From Deltaproteobacteria bacterium (GTDB lineage Bacteria > Myxococcota_A > Polyangia > Polyangiales > JADJMO01), in the NCBI GenBank assembly GCA_022843175.1, contig JALHOE010000060.1, positions 1 to 42,300 of the forward strand: DNA of 42,300 nucleotides, written 5' to 3'. Shown piece after piece: positions 1 through 11,001 of the stretch (within the stretch, counting starts at the first letter, position 1; every line of letters starts with the position of its first letter). Under the pieces are notes generated by a model. That model had not been told where the DNA came from. It saw only the letters and a list, made by a program, of their open reading frames with translations, and ran no database searches. Made by a program: the position numbers and the translations under genes.

Positions 1-763
1 AGAGCGCGAGGAACGCCGCGCCCGTGACCACCGCGGTGCCGCGGGCGAGGGTGCCGCCGAGCGGGGTCGCGAGCGTGAGCGCGACGAACGCGATCGCGAG
101 CACCACCAGGAGCGCGCGCGTGCGCTCGCCACCGACGGCGAGCCCCGCGGCCGCGTACTCGTCCTGCCGGACGAGCGCGATGGCCATGAAGTGCGGGAGC
201 TGCCAGAAGAAGAGGAGCGCGAAGAGGTAGAGCCCGCCGCCTTCCAGATGCCCCGTCGCCGCGGCCCAGCCCATCGCGGGCGGCATCGCGCCGGCGATGG
301 CGCCGACCGGGAGCGCCCAGCGCGTGACGCGCTTCATCGGCGTGTACACGACGACGTATGCGAGCCACGCGAGGACGCCCATCGCCGCGACCCGGGCGTT
401 GGCGAGGAGCAGAAGTGGAATCGACAGAATCGAAATCGCCAGGCCAAAGGCGAGACCGACCGAGGGCGACAGCCGACCGGCGGCGAGGGGACGGTCTCGG
501 GTTCGCTCCATCCGCGCGTCTGTCTCGCGCTCGATCCACATGTTGAGCGCGTTGGCGCCGGCGACGATCATCGCGGTGCCGAGGAGCGCGGGCAGCGCTC
601 GGCCGCCCACCCGCCCCGGCGCCGCGAGCGCGCCGGCGACGCCGGTGGCGACCACCATCGTCGTGATCCGCGGCTTGCAGAGCGCTGCGAGATCGCGCGC
701 GAGGCCCGGAACCGCAGGTGCCCCCACGCGCGCGCGATGGGCTCGTACAACGGCTTCTGTCAT
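1..763 (-). CDS. ctaB: Protoheme IX farnesyltransferase (heme O synthase), 3' end outside window
   Basis: This membrane prenyltransferase of the UbiA family adds a farnesyl group to heme B to make heme O, which A- and B-type heme-copper enzymes use. The translation from the ATG at 763 shows the prenyl-diphosphate site NALNMWIERETDARMERT, the RP that follows it in the family, and the second conserved region with LPHFMA. Several hydrophobic helices are visible. About 254 codons are present and the C-terminus runs off the left edge. The start overlaps the stop of the upstream Rrf2 gene by an ATGA, so the two are translationally coupled. Its place as the last visible gene of a heme-copper enzyme operon fits a role in making that enzyme's heme. 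The family call is firm; which heme the enzyme finally carries is not shown. Confidence 0.92.
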   Translation of the reverse strand, partial: MTEAVVRAHRARVGAPAVPGLARDLAALCKPRITTMVVATGVAGALAAPGRVGGRALPALLGTAMIVAGANALNMWIERETDARMERTRDRPLAAGRLSPSVGLAFGLAISILSIPLLLLANARVAAMGVLAWLAYVVVYTPMKRVTRWALPVGAIAGAMPPAMGWAAATGHLEGGGLYLFALLFFWQLPHFMAIALVRQDEYAAAGLAVGGERTRALLVVLAIAFVALTLATPLGGTLARGTAVVTGAAFLAL

Positions 764-1191
764 GGCGCCCTCCTCCGCAGCGGGGTTAGCCGCGCGTCTG
801 CATACTGCCGCACGTCCTCGAGCGTGGTGCGCGAGGCCCAGCCGTGAATGGAGTCCTTCAGCTCGCTCCAGGTGCCGTGGAGCGGGCACGGGTGCTTGGC
901 GTCGCACTTGCCCCAACCGAACGCGCACGCGTCGGGGAGGCTCGTGTCGGTCGCGTTGAGCACGTCGATGAGGCGGATCTTCTTGGGCGGCTTCGCCAGC
1001 GAGAACCCGCCGCCCGGCCCCTTGCGCGCGTCGAGGATGCCGGCCGCCACGAGCCGCCGCAGCACCTTCTGCAGGTACGGCTGCGGGACGCTCGCCTCGC
1101 CGGCGATCGTCTCGGCGGACACCGTGTCGCCGCGAGTGACGATCACCGCGAGCGCGCGGAGCGCATATTCGGCCGTCTGCGGCAGGTTCAT
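760..1191 (-). CDS. Rrf2-family Fe-S transcriptional regulator (NsrR/IscR-like)
   Basis: This 143-residue protein has the usual Rrf2 length. It has an N-terminal winged helix-turn-helix (TAEYALRALAVI, then PQPYLQKVLRRL and a GPGGGF wing). Three cysteines follow at 89, 96 and 102 (C-x6-C-x5-C, ending CPLH), where NsrR, IscR and RirA bind an iron-sulfur cluster. Family members sense nitric oxide, Fe-S status or redox and repress by binding a dyad. It overlaps the gene before it and ctaB after it by ATGA junctions, so it is made with the heme-copper enzyme. I infer that it senses NO or redox and controls this operon. The cysteine spacing alone cannot separate NsrR from other Rrf2 types. Confidence 0.88.
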   Translation of the reverse strand: MNLPQTAEYALRALAVIVTRGDTVSAETIAGEASVPQPYLQKVLRRLVAAGILDARKGPGGGFSLAKPPKKIRLIDVLNATDTSLPDACAFGWGKCDAKHPCPLHGTWSELKDSIHGWASRTTLEDVRQYADARLTPLRRRAP

Positions 1192-3236
1192 GGGCCCTCC
1201 GAGGAGAAGCCGGCCTCGCGATCGAACAGGACGACGACGCGGCCGGTGTCCCCGAAGGTCATCGTCCGCTCGTGGCGGTGCGTCCACTCGTTCGGGTCGT
1301 GGCTGTCGCCGATCGACACCACCACGCGATGGGTGCCGGGCGAGAGCGCGAGCGTCTCGACCGCGACGCTCGGCCCGTCGCCGCGGAGCCCCTTGGGCGC
1401 GTGCTTGGTCTCGCGAAGCACGACGCCGTCGACCTCGATCCGCAGCCGTACGAGCGCGCGACCGCGCTCGCAGATCTCGTCGCGGCGCATGTGCGGCGGC
1501 ATGGCGAGCTTCTCCTGCTCGGTCACCTTGCGGCAGTGCTCGCCGGTGCGGCGGGGGTGCTTGAACGACACGACCAGCTCGGGCCCGAGCGGCCGCACGC
1601 CGGCGTAGCCCACGGTGCTCCCAGCGCCGATCGACGCGACGAGGAGCGCGGCGAGCGCGAGCGCGGCCCACGGCTTCCCCCGCGCGCCGGGCTCGGGCTT
1701 GCCCTCGCGGAAGTCCTCGGCCGCTCTCGTCAGGTCCGCGAGGCGCGTGCGATCGAGCTCCACCAGGCGCACCCGCTTCGGATCGACCTTGTCTCGCCGG
1801 AGGGAGGGCGCGCGCGTGCCCTCGATGCGCTCGCGGGTGTGCTCCGGTCCCTCGCGGAACTGCGGCTCCTGGCTCCCGCAGGCGACGATGAGGACGCCGC
1901 GCACGCCGTGACGAAGCGCGCGCTCGACGGTGAGCATGTGCACCCATCCGGCGCAGATCACCGGCATCACGTAGTAGCCGGGGAGCGCGTCGCACCGGCC
2001 GGTCTCGGGATCGACCTTCAGCGTGGCGGCCGCCGACCGCGAGCACGCGAACGCGACGTGGGCGCCGGCGCCGTGCTCGTCGATCCAGCGATCGAGCCGC
2101 GCGCGCGCCTCGACCTGCGACACCATCGGCACGCCGATGCCGGCCGAATCGCACGAGCCGGCGCAAATGCCGCAGCCGACGCACTTGTCGGGATCGACCA
2201 CCGCCTGGAGCGCGTGACTGCGCCCGTCGGTGCGGGGCACCATGGAGATCGCGTCGTAGGGGCAATCGACCGAACAGTTGGTGCACCCGTTGCACTTCGG
2301 CAGGTCGACGGCAGCCGGCGCCGCGCGGCCGCGCGCGAGGACCCACGGCAGCGTGAACGCGATGGTGGAGAACAGCACAAGGAGCCACAGCGCGCCGCCG
2401 GAGAGCCGATCGGTGAGCGCGATGGGCAGCTCGTACCACGCGTCGACGCGCATCGCGCCGGTGGTGACGATCATCTTCGCCGACCGACCGGACACCGCGG
2501 GCAGCGCGATCGACAACGCGAGCAGCGACACGCACACGGCGATCGTCATCGGCGCTTTGGTGAGGAACCGCGACCGATTGAGGCGGGTGATGTGCAGCCA
2601 CAGCGCGACCCCCATCGCGAGCGGCAACAGCATGTGAATGAAGAACACCGTGAAGAACAGGAGCGAGTGCACGCTCTTGTCGGCGAGGAACGAGCGGCCC
2701 ATTGGATCGGAGAAGATCGGCAGCACATCGAGCACCTTCGCCGAACCGATGGCGATGCGGCGCGCGGGCTCGTCCCACACCAGCCAGTACCCGAGCCACC
2801 CCACGAACCACAGCGAGCCGATGAGCACGACGCCGGTCACCCACGCGAGCCACCGCGCGCCGGCGAAGCGCCGCGCCGCCGTGAGCCGGAGCGCGTGCAG
2901 CACCACGAACAACATGCACGCGTCGGACGAGTAGCGGTGGATCGATCGCGTGAGCTGCGCGATCAAGCTCCCGCGCATCGCCTCGAGCGACGACCACGCC
3001 TGATACACGCTCGGGCTGTACCAGAGCAGCAGCAGCACCCCGGAGACCGACGCGATGATGAAGCACACGTTGGCGATCGCGCCTGTCTGCGCGAGCGGGT
3101 TGAGCCGCTCGGGCAGGTAGCGATCGAGCCACAGAAACGGCACCTCCAGCGCGGCGAACCCGCGCTCCCCCCGCACGCCCGGATCCGGCCGCGTCTTTTC
3201 GGCCGGCACATCCTGCAGCACGGTGAGGTGCCGCAT
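1188..3236 (-). CDS. Cytochrome b (N-terminal type) / 2x[4Fe-4S] ferredoxin / FlpD(MvhD)-like fusion
   Basis: This 682-residue membrane redox protein appears to be a fusion. Residues 40-300 form a cytochrome b/b6-like bundle with two histidine pairs, H100/H114 and H201/H215, suited to two b hemes. Residues 315-362 carry two ferredoxin motifs, CNGCTNCSVDCP and CVGCGICAGSC. Residues about 380-480 resemble the hydrogenase/heterodisulfide reductase delta subunit (MvhD/FlpD), with conserved cysteines in FACSR, VICAGW and VACGSQEPQFREG. A late membrane helix (about 545-570) leads to a C-terminal domain of about 110 residues that I do not recognise. The ATG at 3236 is chosen because AAGGAG precedes it and it lies 2 bp after the SenC stop. 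It probably passes electrons between the quinol pool or cytosolic carriers and the oxidoreductase encoded upstream; the direction is not known. Confidence 0.82.
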   Translation of the reverse strand: MRHLTVLQDVPAEKTRPDPGVRGERGFAALEVPFLWLDRYLPERLNPLAQTGAIANVCFIIASVSGVLLLLWYSPSVYQAWSSLEAMRGSLIAQLTRSIHRYSSDACMLFVVLHALRLTAARRFAGARWLAWVTGVVLIGSLWFVGWLGYWLVWDEPARRIAIGSAKVLDVLPIFSDPMGRSFLADKSVHSLLFFTVFFIHMLLPLAMGVALWLHITRLNRSRFLTKAPMTIAVCVSLLALSIALPAVSGRSAKMIVTTGAMRVDAWYELPIALTDRLSGGALWLLVLFSTIAFTLPWVLARGRAAPAAVDLPKCNGCTNCSVDCPYDAISMVPRTDGRSHALQAVVDPDKCVGCGICAGSCDSAGIGVPMVSQVEARARLDRWIDEHGAGAHVAFACSRSAAATLKVDPETGRCDALPGYYVMPVICAGWVHMLTVERALRHGVRGVLIVACGSQEPQFREGPEHTRERIEGTRAPSLRRDKVDPKRVRLVELDRTRLADLTRAAEDFREGKPEPGARGKPWAALALAALLVASIGAGSTVGYAGVRPLGPELVVSFKHPRRTGEHCRKVTEQEKLAMPPHMRRDEICERGRALVRLRIEVDGVVLRETKHAPKGLRGDGPSVAVETLALSPGTHRVVVSIGDSHDPNEWTHRHERTMTFGDTGRVVVLFDREAGFSSEGP

Positions 3237-3238
3237 GA

Positions 3239-4162
3239 CTACTCCTTGCTCAGCATGCGGAGCGCGGTGGTGAGCCACTGCTCCTGCCGCTCGCCGAGGC
3301 TGAACCGATACGCGAGCCGGCCCTGCTTATCGACCACCACGAACACGCTGACGTGATCGATGACGCCCGTCTCCGGGTTGCGCTGACGCGCGATCGAGAG
3401 ATCGTCGAGCACGCGATTGACCTCCTTCGGATCGCCGCCGAGCAGGTTGTACTGGGGGGTGTTCATGGCGAGCCCCTTCGCGATGTGCGCGCGGCGGGCG
3501 AGGTCGTCGTGCTCGGGGTCGAGCGTGACCGCGAGCACCACCACCTGCGCGCGCTCATCCGGGTTGAGCGCCGACATCGCCCGGCGAGTCTGCGCCATGA
3601 TCATCGGACAGGCCGCGCTGCACGAGGCGTAGGCGCCCGTGATGAGCACCACCTTGCCGCGGAGCGAGGCGAGCGACACGACCTTGCCGTCGTGGCTCTC
3701 GAGCTCGAGCTTCGGCGGCGCGAACGTGGTGCGGAGCTCCTCGGCGGGGAACGGCAGCTCGCCGGCGGTCGCCTTGGTGCGGAGCGAGCCGAACGCCGCC
3801 GACGCGATCACCACAGTGGTGAGCGCGGCGGAGACGCTCGGCAAGAGCGCGCGCGGTGTGCGCCGGAGGGTTCCGAGGAGACCGCGCCCCCACAGCAGCA
3901 GCACCGCGCCGCCGAGCACCAACGGCTCGGCGAGCATGATCACGACGTAGGCCGACTGCATGCGCCCCGTCGACGGGTCGTAGCCGAAGCACCAGATCTT
4001 GAACTCCTCGGCGAACGCACCGAGGCCGCTGCTGCTCGGGGGAACGAGCAGGATCGCGATCAGGAGCGCCTTGTAGAGGAGCACGAGGGCCAGCATGAAC
4101 GCTGGCGCCCGGTGCCCCACGAAGAGCCAATCCACGGCGGACACGACCCGTGATTTCGACAT
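3239..4162 (-). CDS. SCO1/SenC-family copper chaperone with N-terminal membrane region
   Basis: This 307-residue protein has an N-terminal part (1-130) with about three hydrophobic helices, then a thioredoxin-fold SCO domain. The copper ligands are visible as C181 and C185 (CSAACP) and H270 (IDHVS). SCO proteins deliver copper to, or reduce, the CuA site of subunit II. A CuA subunit is encoded two genes upstream, so that is the likely client. SenC is also a fixed partner in norSY-senC clusters of ammonia oxidisers. GAGGAGG precedes the ATG at 4162, and the stop lies 2 bp before the cytochrome b fusion gene. The extra N-terminal helices are longer than the single anchor of typical SCO proteins. 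Confidence 0.92.
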   Translation of the reverse strand: MSKSRVVSAVDWLFVGHRAPAFMLALVLLYKALLIAILLVPPSSSGLGAFAEEFKIWCFGYDPSTGRMQSAYVVIMLAEPLVLGGAVLLLWGRGLLGTLRRTPRALLPSVSAALTTVVIASAAFGSLRTKATAGELPFPAEELRTTFAPPKLELESHDGKVVSLASLRGKVVLITGAYASCSAACPMIMAQTRRAMSALNPDERAQVVVLAVTLDPEHDDLARRAHIAKGLAMNTPQYNLLGGDPKEVNRVLDDLSIARQRNPETGVIDHVSVFVVVDKQGRLAYRFSLGERQEQWLTTALRMLSKE

Positions 4163-4171
4163 AACGCCTCC

Positions 4172-4339
4172 TCAGCGCACGTGCCAGACGTCGGCGAGCG
4201 CCTTCCAGTTGGCGAAGTAGTAGACGGCGAACGAGATGAGCAACGCGAGCGTGAGCACCACGGTGCCCGGCGTCTTGTGCTCCTCTTCTTCGTGCTCGTG
4301 CGCAAACACTTCGGCGGCTTTCTCTTCGTTCTCGGGCAT
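4172..4339 (-). CDS. Small one-helix membrane protein of the heme-copper enzyme operon
   Basis: This 55-residue protein has an acidic, His-containing N-terminus (residues 1-22) and one membrane helix (about 26-46, TVVLTLALLISFAVYYFANW). AGGAGG stands just before the ATG at 4339. It lies 11 bp after the subunit I gene and 9 bp before senC, so it is surely co-expressed. Such small proteins are often accessory subunits (CcoQ-, subunit IV- or IIa-like) of heme-copper enzymes. The sequence is too short to assign a family. Confidence 0.75.
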   Translation of the reverse strand: MPENEEKAAEVFAHEHEEEEHKTPGTVVLTLALLISFAVYYFANWKALADVWHVR

Positions 4340-4350
4340 GATCGCCTCCT

Positions 4351-5952
4351 TCACCACGGCGTCATCGCGCGGTTCTCGATCTTCTTGCCGAAGAACACCG
4401 CCGCGACGGTCAACAGAATGAACGTGAGCAGGCCGACGAACGCGATGACCGCGCCCACGCCCATCAAGCCGAGCATGACGTGCGCGCCCGAGCCGAAGCC
4501 GGGGGCGAACTGAGCGCCGGTGAACTCGATGTCCCAATGCCGGCGGGGAACGCCGTACGAGCCGGCGAACGACATCCCGAGCGACATCAGCACGATGCCG
4601 ACCGCGAACAGGTACGGCTGCACCCGCGCGAGCCCGCGCGCGTAGTACTCACGCTTGAAGATCAGCGGGACGACGTAATAGGCGAGCCCCATGAACGCGA
4701 GCGAGGTGCCGCCGACCACCGTCGAGTGGAAGTGGCCGGGGATGCGCAGCGTGTTGTGGGCGAGGATGTTGATCTGCTGGGTGCCGAGCGTGACGCCGGT
4801 GATCCCGCCGATGAACCCGAAGATGAGCAGCGAGAGGAAGAACGCCGAGAAGCCGGGGTTCTTCCACGGCGCCGCCGCGAGCCACCCGAAGAGGCCGCGG
4901 TTGTGGCCCTTCTTGCGCATCGCCGTCTCGACCGAGGCCGGAACGGTGAAGCCGTGGATCATCGAGGCGAGCACCGCGAGGTACATCGCGTACGACGTGT
5001 TCCAGATCTTCCACGACGCGCCGACGCCCGGGTCCACGAGGAGGTGGTGGGCGGACGCGAGGTTGATGAACAGGATGTAGAGGACGAACGCGCCGCGGCA
5101 GACCGCCTGATTGAGCGGCTTGGCGCCGGTGGTGAGCGTCGCGAGGAAGTACCAGACCGACACCATGGCGCAGACGTTGACCTGCTGCGACTGGTGACCG
5201 AGCCCCCACCACACGAGGCGATACCAGCCGGCGTCGACCTCCTTCAGGATGTCCATCGACCACAACCAGGTGGGGATCATCACCAGCGCGCCGTGGAGCA
5301 GCGTGACCACCGCGATGATCGCCGCCGCGGTGGCGCCGAACACCACGAGTGGGACCGACCCGGCGTATGTCTTGTCGCGCTTGGCGATGTAGAGGGTGCC
5401 GAAGAAGTTGGCGACCCCGATCAGGGTGCCGACGGCGACCAGGATGATGCCCAGGTAAAAGTTCGAGTGCGCCTTGAGTGGCACATACGAGGTCATCATC
5501 ACGTCGGCCTTGCCGCCGAGGATGGTCACGTCCACCAGCACCGCGCCGGCGACCATCATCACGAACGAGGCCCACGCCATTCCCTTGGAGAACAAGCGTG
5601 AATTGAGCAGCGTGGTCGACGCGAAGTAGAGGATCCCCACCTCCATGAAGAGGATCCAGAAAATGAGCATGTTCAGCCCGTGGAACGTGGTGAGCCGGTA
5701 GTACCAAACCGGATCGAGCAGGTGCACCGCGGGCCAGCGGGTGAGCGCGATGAGCAGCGCGGCGATGCCGCCTGCGAGCAGCGCGACGACACCGAGCACC
5801 GCGTTGAGCCGAATGAACAGCTGCGCGGTGAGGCAGACCGGCAGACCGGTCGTGTCGCAGGTGCGGCTGTTGCCGGCGGCGTGGTTGCCGACCGGCTTGG
5901 TGATGACCTCCGACTCCTCGTGGGAGGCGGGAATTGCGACGGCGTTTGCCAT
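4351..5952 (-). CDS. Heme-copper oxidoreductase subunit I, probable nitric oxide reductase (NorY/sNOR-like)
   Basis: This 533-residue, 12-helix catalytic subunit has all six metal-binding histidines in place: H91 (TFHGLN), H253 (GLGHQSQQ), H302/H303 (ASAHHLL) and H407/H409 (GHFHST). Oxygen reductases have GHPEVY or GHPxVY at the H253 region, where the tyrosine four residues on is cross-linked to the histidine. Here that position is glutamine (Q257). Loss of the tyrosine is a mark of nitric oxide reductases of the heme-copper superfamily. With the CuA subunit and SenC encoded beside it, the nearest described type I know is sNOR (NorSY). The reaction would be 2 NO to N2O, but activity is inferred. 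GGAGG precedes the ATG at 5952. Confidence 0.85.
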   Translation of the reverse strand: MANAVAIPASHEESEVITKPVGNHAAGNSRTCDTTGLPVCLTAQLFIRLNAVLGVVALLAGGIAALLIALTRWPAVHLLDPVWYYRLTTFHGLNMLIFWILFMEVGILYFASTTLLNSRLFSKGMAWASFVMMVAGAVLVDVTILGGKADVMMTSYVPLKAHSNFYLGIILVAVGTLIGVANFFGTLYIAKRDKTYAGSVPLVVFGATAAAIIAVVTLLHGALVMIPTWLWSMDILKEVDAGWYRLVWWGLGHQSQQVNVCAMVSVWYFLATLTTGAKPLNQAVCRGAFVLYILFINLASAHHLLVDPGVGASWKIWNTSYAMYLAVLASMIHGFTVPASVETAMRKKGHNRGLFGWLAAAPWKNPGFSAFFLSLLIFGFIGGITGVTLGTQQINILAHNTLRIPGHFHSTVVGGTSLAFMGLAYYVVPLIFKREYYARGLARVQPYLFAVGIVLMSLGMSFAGSYGVPRRHWDIEFTGAQFAPGFGSGAHVMLGLMGVGAVIAFVGLLTFILLTVAAVFFGKKIENRAMTPW

Positions 5953-5967
5953 GTCTCTCTCGCCTCC

Positions 5968-6492
5968 TTATTCGACGATGATCTTGCCGGTCATCAGGTG
6001 ATGACCGATGCCGCAGAACTCGTTGCAGACGATGCTGTATTCGCCCTTCATCGTGGGGGTGATGGTCAGCACGTGGTCGTACCCGGGCAGAACCTGGAAG
6101 TTCATGTTCATGGGCTGCAGCGAGAAGCCGTGCTGCAGGTCGGTCGAAGAGATGTGCAGTCGGTACGTTTGATTGACGCGTAGCTTGAGCGCCGGGTACC
6201 AGCGCCACATCTGGCCCTGCAGGTACGCGTCGCCGCCGGGGCTCGGCTCCACGACGGGGACGCCGTTGATCTCGGCCACCTTGTTCGTCTTCACGAACTG
6301 CTCGACGCGCGCGGCGAACGCGGCCGGCGTGACTCGGTACGAGTCGCCGGTGCTGTTCTGCTTCCCCTTGAAATGCCAGTACGGCATCATGATCGACAAC
6401 ACGAGACACCAGGCCAGCGCGAGGCCAATCCAGGTGCGTTCGGCGCCCGAGGGTGGCTTGAACCAGTTTGCTTCCGGTGCGTGGATACTCAT
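5968..6492 (-). CDS. CuA-type subunit II of the heme-copper enzyme (NorS-like)
   Basis: This 174-residue protein has one N-terminal helix (about 20-38) followed by a periplasmic cupredoxin domain. The dinuclear CuA ligands are complete: H121 (LQHGF), then C156, E158, C160, H164 and M167 in CNEFCGIGHHLM. It would accept electrons from a periplasmic donor and pass them to subunit I. The single anchor and short length fit the B-type/NorS group better than the two-helix mitochondrial type. GGGAGG lies 7 nt before the ATG at 6492. The gap to the subunit I gene is 15 bp. Confidence 0.9.
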   Translation of the reverse strand: MSIHAPEANWFKPPSGAERTWIGLALAWCLVLSIMMPYWHFKGKQNSTGDSYRVTPAAFAARVEQFVKTNKVAEINGVPVVEPSPGGDAYLQGQMWRWYPALKLRVNQTYRLHISSTDLQHGFSLQPMNMNFQVLPGYDHVLTITPTMKGEYSIVCNEFCGIGHHLMTGKIIVE

Positions 6493-6505
6493 CGAATGCC
6501 TCCCT

Positions 6506-6649
6506 TCACGGCAGCGTGGCTTTGGGCATCGAAGCCATGTCGATCCACCCCCACAGCGTGTAGGAGAGGAACGGGACGATGATGCCGAGCGCCAACAGGA
6601 GCCACGGGTTGTCCATCAATCGCTGAATGGGGTGAACCTTTACCGCCAT
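6506..6649 (-). CDS. 47-residue one-helix membrane protein
   Basis: The translation is a short basic N-terminus (MAVKVHPIQRLMDNP) followed by one membrane helix (about 16-35, WLLLALGIIVPFLSYTLWGW) and a short tail. The ATG at 6649 lies inside the last codons of the upstream gene (10-bp overlap), and the CuA gene begins 13 bp after its stop. It is probably a helper helix of the complex, like subunit IIa of ba3 oxidase, but no family can be assigned from so short a sequence. Confidence 0.7.
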   Translation of the reverse strand: MAVKVHPIQRLMDNPWLLLALGIIVPFLSYTLWGWIDMASMPKATLP

Positions 6650-7983
6650 GCGAGACCTCGCTCGGTGCGCAGTTGAATGAGTCGCCGGCGCCACATCGCG
6701 CCGACAACGAACAAGAAGAGGACCCCGCCGGTGACGGCGACGAGCCCGCCGATGCCCATCACCGCGAGGCCAATGGTCTCCGGGAGCGAGCGAATCACCT
6801 GCTCGCCCCCGTAGGCCTTGCGTTGCATGCCGTGCGCGCCGGCGAGGGCGAAGCCGATCGCGAACACGAGCTGTCCGCCGCCGAGGAGCGCCGGCTGCAC
6901 CGCGGCGATCGCGCGCACGCGCTTCGACGGGGCGGGGAACCCGAGCGCCTCGAGGAGCGGCACCGTCACCGCCATGAACGCGACCGTCACCGCGCCGATC
7001 GACGCGTGATAGTGCGCGGGGATGACGGTGTTTGGCCCGCGGATGGAGGCGCCGAGCGCGAACCCGACGACGGTGAGCGCCGCGCTGGCGATGAAGCCCG
7101 CGTTCGTGGGCCGCGCGCGGACGCAGAGCGCGAGGTAGATCAGCACCGCAGGCGCGATACCGAACTGCATGAGCCTCGTGAAGCCGACGTGATACGTCGC
7201 GGTGGTCACGCCGGCCAGGGGCAGGAGCGGCGCGGCGAACAGCGGCGCGATGAGCAGCGAGAAGACGATCACCGCAGCGCGCCGCGATACGACCGCCCGC
7301 CCCGCGCTCCGCGAGAGGAGGATCGTCCACACCGAGAGCATCGCGGCGACGCTCGCGAACTGCAGCACGTGCCCGCCGCCCCACATCACGATCTCCCAGT
7401 GCGCCTCCGGCGTCAGGCCGGCGGGCATCGCGAGGCGCGTCGAGAAGAACGTGAGCAGCGCGAGGAGCACGGCGAGCGCCGACGCGCGGAGCCCGACCAC
7501 CGCCGCGGGCGGGATGAGCTCCGACTCGCGCTCGGTGCCGGGGAGGAGCTTCGGGTCGAGGAACGTGCACGCCAGGGCGAAGCCGATGGCGACGAGCCCG
7601 CCGATGTAGAGCGGGTGGTCGACGACCGGGATGTAGTTGGCGAGGATCGCGCGGGCGCCCGGCGCACCGGCCGCCGCGAGCAGCAGCGCGACGCCGCCCG
7701 CCGCGAACGCCGACGCGTGGCGCGCGATCGGGTTGGAGCGAATGCGCGACGGGATGAGCGCGAAGAGCGCGGCGACGAACGCGTAGAACCAGACGACGAG
7801 CGCCAGGTCCACGTGCACCACCAGGCAGCGCTTGAAGAACGCCGGATCGGTCACCAGCGTCGCGAGGCGCGGCATGCGCGCGAACACGAGGCCGGTGGCG
7901 AGCACCCCTGCGAGTCCGAGCGATAGAACCGCGACGAGCATCCACTCCCGCGCGCGCTCTCGGTCGTCCCTAAAAGTGGACAT
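6640..7983 (-). CDS. Second, divergent heme-copper oxidase subunit I-like protein
   Basis: This 447-residue protein has about 12 membrane helices and histidines that line up by eye with subunit I: H57 (VVHVDLALVVW, low-spin heme), H205 (GGGHVLQF, CuB), H265 (ATYHVGF) and H324/H326 (IPAHYHASIG). The first histidine of the usual HH pair is a tyrosine (Y264), and the active-site tyrosine after H205 is absent. It may be a second NO reductase type, an electron-entry subunit or a degenerate paralogue. It is the first gene of the operon. The start at 7983 is the most natural N-terminus before helix 1, but its ribosome site is weak. ATG at 7941 is the alternative. Confidence 0.75.
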   Translation of the reverse strand: MSTFRDDRERAREWMLVAVLSLGLAGVLATGLVFARMPRLATLVTDPAFFKRCLVVHVDLALVVWFYAFVAALFALIPSRIRSNPIARHASAFAAGGVALLLAAAGAPGARAILANYIPVVDHPLYIGGLVAIGFALACTFLDPKLLPGTERESELIPPAAVVGLRASALAVLLALLTFFSTRLAMPAGLTPEAHWEIVMWGGGHVLQFASVAAMLSVWTILLSRSAGRAVVSRRAAVIVFSLLIAPLFAAPLLPLAGVTTATYHVGFTRLMQFGIAPAVLIYLALCVRARPTNAGFIASAALTVVGFALGASIRGPNTVIPAHYHASIGAVTVAFMAVTVPLLEALGFPAPSKRVRAIAAVQPALLGGGQLVFAIGFALAGAHGMQRKAYGGEQVIRSLPETIGLAVMGIGGLVAVTGGVLFLFVVGAMWRRRLIQLRTERGLAWR

Positions 7984-8212
7984 AGATGTCCAGTATTCGA
8001 ATACGGCGTCGACTGTCGAGCCCTCGGTCAGGGCCGCATGACAACCATCAGCCTCGCCTCGCGAATGGGCCGCGCGGTGGTGCGGTTCCTCAACAGTCCA
8101 CTCAGCCGCATACACTCACGCGCAAGACATCCGTCATGTCATGGGCCCGCGCACGGTCGTAGCGTCACCCGCGAACCGCCGCCGTTCGGCGACGAGATCG
8201 GAGCTCTCCCCC
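7984..8212. promoter_or_regulatory. Divergent promoter region between the heme-copper operon and the fasciclin gene
   Basis: This 229-bp non-coding stretch separates genes read in opposite directions, so it must hold both promoters. Two inverted repeats stand out. One is the AT-rich 12-bp perfect palindrome GTATTCGAATAC at 7993-8004, ten bases before the predicted operon start. The other is GACAT-CCGTC-ATGTC at 8126-8140. Either could be an operator for the operon's Rrf2 protein or for the Crp/Fnr regulators encoded nearby. I saw no clean TTGAT-N4-ATCAA site. Confidence 0.4.
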
Positions 8213-8752
8213 ATGAAGACGTACCCGTTCGTCCTGACGCTGGCCCTCCTCGGCTGCGAGCGCGAGGCCACGACGCCCGAGGCTGCCCAAGCGCCCACCC
8301 CGCCCGCCGCCGCACCGGTCGCGCCGGCCGTGAAGTCTGCCGGCAACACCGTCGTCGACATCGCCGTCGGCTCGAAGGATCACACGACGCTCGTGACCGC
8401 GCTCAAGGCCGCCGACCTGGTGACGTCGCTGGCGAGCCCCGGCGGCGTCTACACCGTGTTCGCGCCGACCAACGCCGCGTTCGACAAGCTGCCCAAGGGG
8501 ACCGTCGAGGGCCTGCTCAAGCCGGAGAAGAAGGCTGACCTGACCAAGGTGCTCAAGCACCACGCCGCGGTGCCCATGCTCCGCGTTCAGGACATGCGCG
8601 ACGGTGAGACGCTGAGCATGGCCGACGGCACCAAGGTCACCTTCCACGTGAAGGACGGCAAGACCATGGTCAACGACGTGACGATCGTTGCGTCCTACTC
8701 CGCGATCAACGGCATCGTCCACGTCGTCGACGGCGTCATCCTGCCGAACTAG
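8213..8752 (+). CDS. Fasciclin (FAS1) domain lipoprotein
   Basis: This 179-residue protein starts with a short lipoprotein signal (MKTYPFVLTLALLGC, lipobox LLGC, Cys15) and an Ala/Pro-rich linker. One FAS1 domain fills about residues 45-178. The two FAS1 signatures are present: TVFAPTNAAFDKLP (H1) and INGIVHVVDGVILP (H2). FAS1 domains act in adhesion and surface binding. The protein would be anchored in the cell envelope. The ATG at 8213 is chosen because it opens the signal peptide. The upstream in-frame extension is Arg-rich and unlikely. Confidence 0.92.
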   Translation: MKTYPFVLTLALLGCEREATTPEAAQAPTPPAAAPVAPAVKSAGNTVVDIAVGSKDHTTLVTALKAADLVTSLASPGGVYTVFAPTNAAFDKLPKGTVEGLLKPEKKADLTKVLKHHAAVPMLRVQDMRDGETLSMADGTKVTFHVKDGKTMVNDVTIVASYSAINGIVHVVDGVILPN

Positions 8753-9375: not shown

Positions 9376-10038
9376 TCAAGCGATGCGCTCGTCGGGCTCC
9401 TGCTCTTGGCGGGGGTCGCGTCGAGTGATCGTCGCGAGGCGCTCGAGGAGCGGACGGTCGAGGATCGCGATGCGATTGCGGGTGGCCGCGATCGCGCCGC
9501 GCAGCTTGAGCGAAGCGATCGCGCGCGAGAGCGTCTCGGGAGCGATCCCGAGCAGCGCGGCGATCACGCGGCGCGGGAGCTCTTGCGAGTCGTGCTCGAG
9601 GATCCACGTCGCGGTGCGGCTCACCGCGTTGCCGTCGCTGCCCGCGGAGCGCGGCGCGGGCACCGAGGAAGCGAGCATCGTCATGACGACGTGCGCGGGT
9701 GAGCCCTCGGAGCCGAGCCACTCGCGGAGGCGATCGGTCGAGACCTCGCACAGCGTGGCGGCCGTCATCGCGCGCGCTGCGTCCGCGTAGCGGGGACGCA
9801 CGAGCGCTTCGACGCCGATCAACGAGCCGGGGTGGACGACGTCGCGGACGACGTCGTTGCCCGAGCGCGTGGAGCGCACCAGGAGGACGGTGCCGCGTTT
9901 GACGAATCGGACGCTCTCCGCGGTCGCGTCCTCGCCGTGAATGGTGTCTCCCGCGGCGAAGCGGCGCGGGAGGAACGGGCACGGGCGCGATGCGCGACCG
10001 AGCGGACAGCGTTCGCAGGCGGTGATTCCGGGCATCAT
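9376..10038 (-). CDS. FNR-like Crp-family regulator with a probable [4Fe-4S] site
   Basis: This 220-residue regulator has an N-terminal cysteine group C8-x2-C11-x8-C20 and a further cysteine at 97 (TLCEVS). These sit at the same places as C20/C23/C29 and C122 of E. coli FNR, so an oxygen- or NO-sensitive cluster is likely. A cyclic-nucleotide-type beta barrel follows. The C-terminal helix-turn-helix carries ETLSR (168-172), matching the ExxSR recognition helix that in FNR reads TTGAT half-sites. The spacing between C11 and C20 is longer than in FNR. It may control the nearby NO-reductase-like operon, but no site was found. Confidence 0.85.
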   Translation of the reverse strand: MMPGITACERCPLGRASRPCPFLPRRFAAGDTIHGEDATAESVRFVKRGTVLLVRSTRSGNDVVRDVVHPGSLIGVEALVRPRYADAARAMTAATLCEVSTDRLREWLGSEGSPAHVVMTMLASSVPAPRSAGSDGNAVSRTATWILEHDSQELPRRVIAALLGIAPETLSRAIASLKLRGAIAATRNRIAILDRPLLERLATITRRDPRQEQEPDERIA

Positions 10039-10123: not shown

Positions 10124-10882
10124 TCAAAGGCTTCGCTCGCCGTCGTCGCGGGCGTAGGTGGCGCGGACCAGGGTCTCCGGCTGGTGGATCTGGAATCCGC
10201 TCGAGGTGGTCTCGACGACTCCGGCCTTTTCCCAGGCGCGGATGGTGCGAATGGTGGTCTCGACCCGGGCGCCGATCAGGCAGGCGAGCTCGGTGCGCGA
10301 GAGGCAGACCGGGATCCCGATCGAGCCGTCCTCGGCCTCGTCGCCGAACCGCTCGGCGAGCCCGAGGAGGAGCGTCGCCAGGCGCTTGGGCACCGAGCCC
10401 GCGCTCATGATGCGGATCTTCTCCTGGAGCATCTGCGTGTGCTCGACGAGGGTGCGGCTCATCGAGCCCGCGAAGTCGGGGCGGGCGTTCATGGCCGCGA
10501 GCACCGGCTCGGCCGGAACCCTGAGAATCTCGGCACTCTCCGAGCAGACGATGGCCGCGGCCGGGTACGGCCGACGCCCGATCACCGCCACGTCTCCGAT
10601 GCTCTCGTGCGGGCCGAAGAGCGCGACGATGGCCTCGGTCCCGTCGGCCGCTGTGCGGATGATCTTGAAGAGCCCCGAGAGGATGAGCGTGAAATGCGTG
10701 GGCGGATCGCCGGCCGACCACAGGCGCTCACCGGCGGTCAGCCGCCGAGCCGTGGCGAGCCGAGCGATGTCGGACAACGCGCCGCGTTCAAGTCCGGAGA
10801 ACAGCCTGGAGGCCGCGAGGAGCTTCTCCGTTCGCCCCATCGCCACGGCGGGCGCCGATACGGTCGACATGCCATCGGTCAT
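10124..10882 (-). CDS. Crp/Fnr-family transcriptional regulator
   Basis: This protein of about 252 residues has a cyclic-nucleotide-binding-like N-terminal barrel (LFSGLERGALSDIA, GERLWSAGDPP, then a GPHESIGDVAV region). A long dimer helix follows, then a winged helix (LSRTELACLIGARVETTIRT). It lacks the N-terminal cysteine cluster of its neighbour, so it would sense something else, such as a cyclic nucleotide or heme ligand. The start is uncertain. ATG 10882 is the first ATG, GTG 10900 and ATG 10870/10840 are possible, and none has a clear ribosome site. It is divergent from the CBS-domain gene. Confidence 0.85.
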   Translation of the reverse strand: MTDGMSTVSAPAVAMGRTEKLLAASRLFSGLERGALSDIARLATARRLTAGERLWSAGDPPTHFTLILSGLFKIIRTAADGTEAIVALFGPHESIGDVAVIGRRPYPAAAIVCSESAEILRVPAEPVLAAMNARPDFAGSMSRTLVEHTQMLQEKIRIMSAGSVPKRLATLLLGLAERFGDEAEDGSIGIPVCLSRTELACLIGARVETTIRTIRAWEKAGVVETTSSGFQIHQPETLVRATYARDDGERSL

Positions 10883-11001
10883 GTACAAGATGCGCGCCAC
10901 ACAGCCGGAGCCGTCCCGGCATGCGATCTGCTGCCTCCCCGGAGGCCGATCCTCGCCGTCACACGACGCTACCGGACCGAGCTGTTGCTGGGAGGGGACT
11001 C

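Follow-up and report, generated by a model that had tools for sequence, protein, structure and literature searches.

The window analysed here, a 42.3 kb stretch of DNA that constitutes one entire contig (G000:C60) of a host genome of 9.75 Mb in 470 contigs, begins with an operon that very probably encodes an extended nitric oxide reductase of the eNOR type. Judged from its sequence, the enzyme is likely to turn nitric oxide into N2O. The catalytic family, eNOR, is already known; what appears new is a pair of additional proteins, a second subunit I-like protein (I2) and a cytochrome b fusion (CYB). Nine contiguous minus-strand genes occupy positions 1-7983, with a gene-to-gene spacing of -10 to +15 bp, in the order I2, S, II, I, T, SCO, CYB, Rrf2, CtaB. 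The features are as follows.

7983-6640, minus: I2, 447 aa, most likely a paralogue of eNOR subunit I without catalytic function (profile match, tree, AlphaFold2 model)
6649-6506, minus: S, a small single-helix transmembrane protein of 47 aa, comparable in place and size to the IIa subunit of B-type enzymes
6492-5968, minus: CuA subunit II, with the full CuA ligand set (family search and alignment)
5952-4351, minus: catalytic subunit I, assigned to the eNOR family, H253-x-S-Q-Q257 (alignment to ba3 and tree)
4339-4172, minus: T, a small transmembrane protein, the detached C-terminal helix of subunit I
4162-3239, minus: SCO/SenC copper chaperone, with C181, C185 and H270 conserved (family search)
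3236-1188, minus: CYB, a cytochrome b6 domain, two [4Fe-4S] motifs, FlpD, a transmembrane segment and a C-terminal beta domain
1191-760, minus: Rrf2-family regulator with three conserved cysteines, C89, C96 and C102
763-<2, minus: CtaB/CyoE heme O synthase, running off the contig end (family search)
7973-7996, minus: putative Rrf2 operator ATACTGGACATCTATGTCCACTTT, overlapping the I2 ATG (weight matrix)

An operon of nine genes for a heme-copper enzyme, including genes for its assembly and regulation, had been predicted originally, and the family matches (COX1, COX2, SCO1-SenC, Cytochrome_B+Fer4+FlpD, Rrf2, UbiA/CyoE) agree with that prediction, down to the presence of the CuA subunit, SenC, heme O synthase and Rrf2 in a single operon. 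The CuA ligands H121, C156, E158, C160, H164 and M167 are complete and at least 98% conserved (alignment, n=93). By its place and size S, for which the alignment comprised 91 rows, resembles the subunit IIa described for B-type enzymes (PMC3128077). The counterpart of T is fused to subunit I in most relatives and is split off in 18 of the 89 loci examined, a count that excludes three rows from a list of 21 that are actually fused and had been missed by the search pattern.

A scan of named genomes returned 448 relatives, mostly from Myxococcota, and the closest 80 were kept for counting the neighbouring genes. Where the flank was long enough, subunit II was present in 75/75 loci, SCO in 71/74 (it is split in the remaining three), CYB in 67/67 and I2 in 57/65; since these are the closest relatives, the counts describe this lineage and not all eNORs. 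Among the same 80, going by their record titles, the block occurs in about eight phyla: Myxococcota, Planctomycetota, Verrucomicrobiota, Balneolota, Rhodothermota/Bacteroidota, Spirochaetota, Calditrichota and Acidobacteriota. Nearly every named locus that can be tested preserves the block, so the operon is not a chance arrangement. On a Defluviimonas plasmid (L065), the eNOR gene is accompanied by CtaB, SCO, a cytochrome b protein and then a hemerythrin-family gene.

Subunit I and its place in the eNOR family

Subunit I retains all six metal-binding histidines (H91, H253, H302, H303, H407 and H409) and, as originally predicted, carries glutamine (Q257) in place of the active-site tyrosine. 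Both features were borne out by alignment with subunit I of the B-family enzyme Thermus ba3, its closest solved relative (E 3e-43), in which the CuB ligand H233 corresponds to H253 and the cross-linked Tyr237 to Q257. The H-x-S-Q-Q motif is kept by all full-length orthologues found in the phylum, and glutamine occupies the tyrosine position in 27/27 rows of the clade to which subunit I belongs (the Q clade), including the eNOR of Rhodothermus marinus DSM 4252, whereas all B-type oxygen reductase rows of the alignment have tyrosine. Helix VI of subunit I reads HxxxQ rather than the HxxxE of cNOR and qNOR, and these two families were rejected for it; the HLWVE protein of the host is the product of another gene (L004). 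Y268, S330 and H333, which align with Y248, S309 and T312 of ba3, are also conserved in the Q clade and are candidate residues of the single conserved proton channel expected of an eNOR.

The residue at the tyrosine position is diagnostic: Y in oxygen reductases, E in cNOR and qNOR, N in sNOR and CuANOR, D in gNOR and Q in eNOR (PMC8756737 Table A4, which follows Hemp & Gennis, 2008). Because subunit I has glutamine at this position and the table gives asparagine for sNOR, the signature is that of eNOR, and on sequence grounds we conclude that subunit I belongs to the eNOR family and not to sNOR. eNOR has been characterised biochemically and reduces NO under micro-oxic conditions (PMC11388526).

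A careful tree of 56 rows, including 27 Gln rows, 14 Tyr-bearing B-type rows and 12 I2 rows, placed subunit I in the Q clade together with the R. marinus eNOR (RMAR_eNOR_L208; support 88/88). The Tyr-bearing B-type rows form a group of their own (99/97), with subunit I outside it, and the I2 rows form another (100/100) that adjoins the Gln rows (Q and I2 together, 100/99). A position of subunit I inside the A- or B-type oxygen reductases, the result that was to count against the original reading, was thus not recovered. sNOR, bNOR, gNOR and nNOR, whose reference sequences lie outside this tree, are excluded by the residue alone. The eNOR of R. marinus reportedly reduces NO, in work ascribed to Murali et al. 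in 2024.

The R. marinus DSM 4252 genome (G447) was recognised by a contig of 125,133 bases that is 100% identical to plasmid NC_013502 over the 3 kb tested; its other contig has 3,261,604 bases. It encodes a protein with GHGSQQIN, preceded by S and II genes, and a separate Tyr-bearing ba3. The window subunit I shares 44% identity with the GHGSQQIN protein and 29% with this ba3; its identity to two Tyr-bearing B-type proteins is 28-29%. The R. marinus eNOR and that of the window have in common the glutamine, a CuA subunit II, a small IIa-like protein and membership of one clade. In contrast, the R. marinus locus consists only of S-II-I, with no I2, SCO, CYB, CtaB or Rrf2 gene nearby, and the window encodes the last helix of subunit I separately. 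I2 and CYB are likewise absent at the loci of other distant Gln-bearing relatives, in Thermus and Thermomicrobium. Since both are missing beside the R. marinus eNOR, eNOR activity in general does not depend on them and, as this is the characterised enzyme, the form found in the phyla considered here appears to be uncharacterised.

Some departures were seen among the relatives. In helix X of subunit I, the Thermus plasmids L067 and L068 have GHFK rather than GHFH, with lysine in place of the expected low-spin heme histidine. Two subunit I genes, G129:C1:5658699-5660258 and G506:C54:46997-48526 (L197), contain one in-frame stop each (TGA and TAA, respectively), reflecting either decay or sequence error.

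I2 and CYB, the additional proteins

The second subunit I-like gene was correctly perceived as a relative of subunit I, but two of the three CuB ligands are gone. A profile built from 39 I2 proteins matches Thermus ba3, the best solved relative of I2 as well, over its length (E 9e-10) and aligns H57, H205, H324 and H326 of I2 with H72, H233, H384 and H386 of ba3; H57, H324 and H326 are heme histidines and H205 is the one CuB-type histidine. All four are invariant (n=69), and Q208, three residues after H205, is 91% conserved. The helix VII pair H282/H283 of ba3 is without a counterpart in I2, being missing in all I2 rows, as are counterparts of Gln257, Glu104, Ser330 and His333 of subunit I. 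The AlphaFold2 model (pLDDT 94.7) has the heme-copper fold (Foldseek TM 0.75 to ba3; VIA Z 32.2, rmsd 3.7, 411 residues aligned). The ligand alignment and the fold together indicate that I2 retains the ligands of both hemes and that no normal CuB is possible; H205 may act as a distal ligand to a heme. By sequence, I2 is related to eNOR subunit I but degenerate, having lost the CuB site. I2 was also considered as a second catalytic site and rejected, as it lacks the helix VII histidine pair, the Gln at H+4, Glu104 and the S330/H333 pair. We infer that it is most likely a non-catalytic, heme-bearing partner beside subunit I, with a structural role or as an electron relay.

Identity to the window protein ranges from 38 to 75% for I2 and from 57 to 87% for subunit I, so that I2 evolves faster. 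As to its origin, an approximately unbiased (AU) comparison of a position at the base of the Gln clade with one inside the CYB-bearing lineage favours neither (p 0.504). The plasmid collection contained no match to I2. In 14 further whole genomes, I2 was absent from seven (three with no match and four matching only at subunit I), and it lay on another contig in three Planctomycetota; some genomes have eNOR and CYB without I2.

The predicted cytochrome b fusion is present and is larger than was first described, as family searches add two [4Fe-4S] motifs and an FlpD domain, and there is a beta domain at the C terminus. Its histidine pairs, H101/H115 and H202/H216, are each 14 residues apart, as in cytochrome b6, and the four histidines and eight FeS cysteines are invariant (n=79). 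The FlpD cysteines C399, C429 and C454 are found in most relatives and lost in some, for example in Pelagicoccus (L129). Profile matches were to cytochrome b6 (7e-32), HdrA and MvhD, with which CYB has its b6, FeS and FlpD domains in common. In the model (pLDDT 90), residues 36-306 match cytochrome b (Z 22.4, rmsd 2.9, 254 residues aligned); no separate fold match to the C-terminal beta domain was among the matches listed, which were all to cytochrome b. From the helices and flanking charges, judged by eye, the FeS/FlpD part would be cytoplasmic and the C-terminal beta domain periplasmic. A Chloroflexi ORF, RME88945.1, has a C1 cytochrome alongside cytochrome b6, FeS and FlpD domains (PMC8756737 appendix). 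In contrast to that protein, no c-type heme domain was found in CYB, which ends in a transmembrane segment and the beta domain and is fixed in the eNOR operon. The original prediction had set both this fusion and the additional subunit I-like gene outside the known NorSY sets, which fits, as the two belong to a widespread eNOR lineage. No description of I2 or CYB was found in the literature searched, which did not include Murali et al., 2024.

By analogy with other quinol-fed periplasmic reductases, the simplest reading is that the b hemes of CYB oxidise quinol and pass electrons to CuA, and CYB thus probably feeds the NO reductase. From synteny, both CYB and I2 would join the complex. There is, however, an appreciable chance, if well short of even, that the two stand apart from catalysis, I2 as an assembly factor or structural placeholder and CYB as a separate quinol:FeS oxidoreductase that shares only its regulation with the reductase. 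The genomes that have eNOR and CYB without I2, and the faster evolution of I2, are consistent with such a separation, whereas the adjacency of both genes (57/65 and 67/67 loci) argues against it, and four histidines invariant in 69 I2 sequences are hard to explain without heme.

Probable nitric oxide reduction in genomic context and a proposed model

A function in NO reduction is supported, beyond the glutamine signature and the placement with the R. marinus eNOR, by the company that the gene keeps. In a sample of 379 genomes of the phylum, 48 carry an eNOR gene by strong match; NosZ was detected in 35/48 of these and in 78/331 of the others (p 4e-11), and NirK in 25/48 and 54/331, respectively (p 2e-7), both p-values being optimistic because the genomes are related. 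The eNOR gene lies on the same contig as nirK, within about 10 kb, in four genomes (G188, G091, G149 and G309), and is similarly linked to nosZ in three (G065, G196 and G057). In Ardenticatena, eNOR shares one operon with NirK (PMC4653789). In the host genome, one NirK and two NosZ of the Sec type exceed the cut-off, both NosZ genes being full-length (G000:C58, L151; C23, L152); NirS/cytochrome d1 was sought in the host genome and none was found. The host also encodes an A-type oxidase and a 737-aa qNOR-like protein (L004) with an HLWVEG motif, and because of the latter the eNOR-type enzyme may not be the main NO reductase of this organism. An 849-aa protein in which a cbb3-like subunit I is joined to a FixO-type cytochrome domain is encoded at G000:C50 (L002).

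A B-family enzyme whose main activity under micro-oxic conditions is the reduction of oxygen, or of oxygen and NO, and for which NO detoxification is secondary, would share the fold and the CuA donor site; CtaB and SCO have a role in oxidases as well, and at the thresholds applied 8/48 carriers lack both NirK and NosZ. However, given that the tyrosine of all B-type oxygen reductase rows is absent, that carriers are enriched in NirK and NosZ and linked to them, and that the operon includes an Rrf2 regulator, we consider this unlikely. An oxygen reductase was rejected as the best reading on account of the missing tyrosine and the position in the tree outside the Tyr-bearing rows. That the enzyme is of the sNOR (NorSY-SenC) type, as was originally proposed, is very improbable, for although its CuA subunit and SCO/SenC share an operon and the tyrosine is lost, SCO also adjoins Tyr-bearing B-type enzymes, every relative has glutamine and not the tabulated asparagine, and subunit I clusters with the R. 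marinus eNOR. Indeed, sNOR and bNOR/CuANOR resemble the window enzyme in having a CuA subunit II, SCO/SenC and a small IIa-like protein, but have asparagine at the tyrosine position (PMC8756737 Table A4; PMC3475470 for B. azotoformans), with no I2 or cytochrome b fusion reported.

Based on these observations, we propose a model for the eNOR-type reductase. Quinol oxidation at the diheme domain of CYB, which is of the cytochrome b6 type, would supply the electrons, and the FeS/FlpD clusters in the cytoplasm would offer a second point of redox entry or exit. From CYB the electrons would pass to CuA and on to the low-spin heme of subunit I, which T completes. At the heme/CuB site, with glutamine in place of the cross-linked tyrosine, 2 NO + 2 e- + 2 H+ would yield N2O + H2O. 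I2, presumably a duplicated subunit I that lost CuB, the glutamine and K-channel-like residues while keeping its heme histidines, would adjoin subunit I to form a pseudo-heterodimer. SCO would load copper, CtaB would make heme O and Rrf2 would repress the promoter from a palindromic operator. A stronger version, which we regard as doubtful, makes I2 a CuB-less diheme electron-transfer copy in a heterodimeric NO reductase coupled to the cytochrome b/FeS/FlpD protein, with electrons being split. If true, quinol electrons would be divided between NO at high potential in the periplasm and FeS-FlpD at low potential in the cytoplasm, so that NO respiration would drive the formation of low-potential reductant.

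NO reduction makes N2O, a greenhouse gas. Databases usually name such genes as oxygen reductases or 'cbb3-type oxidase', and carriers in Myxococcota, Planctomycetota, Verrucomicrobiota, Balneolota and Spirochaetota are therefore easily missed. Furthermore, a CuB-less heme-copper subunit would be a natural experiment in the conversion of a catalytic subunit into a partner.

Probable regulation by Rrf2

A palindrome, AATAGA-N8-TCTATT, with a 20-bp consensus of about RATRGACTTGACAGTCYATT, recurs upstream of the operon among 22 loci that have a divergent rrf2 gene; it occurs within two mismatches in 16/22 intergenic regions compared with 0.5 per 22 in shuffled sequences. In seven of these loci (L147, L114, L143, L131, L149, L108 and L084), a further palindrome lies exactly 33 bp away; on visual inspection, a -35-like TTGAC falls under the first copy and a -10-like TATAGA under the second. 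These paired palindromes are probable Rrf2 operators of the eNOR operon, and the pair offers a direct regulatory test. A weight matrix built from the loci of relatives, with the window left out, scores 21.9 at 7973-7996, the next best site in the 42.3 kb window scoring 1.2. The putative operator overlaps the I2 start in the window and in L071 and L072; as its right half corresponds in all three to the first codons ATG-TCC-AYT, part of the match could be coding. A search of the host genome for an Rrf2 regulon with an 18-bp pattern, which misses the window's own site, gave seven sites compared with five in the control and hence no signal.

By analogy with NsrR, the regulator may be an Fe-S, NO-sensing repressor. 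It exceeds the Rrf2 superfamily threshold (100.8 vs 73.3) and falls below the curated NsrR model (25.6 bits vs 182), for which reason NO sensing is an analogy. On the Thermus plasmids L067 and L068, genes for Rrf2 and for a DUF542 protein are among the neighbours of the eNOR gene. In the window, two Crp/Fnr-type regulators (9376-10038 and 10124-10900, both minus), possible oxygen or NO regulators, are encoded directly upstream of the operon, and a gene for a fasciclin-domain protein (8141-8752, plus) is divergent from the operon.
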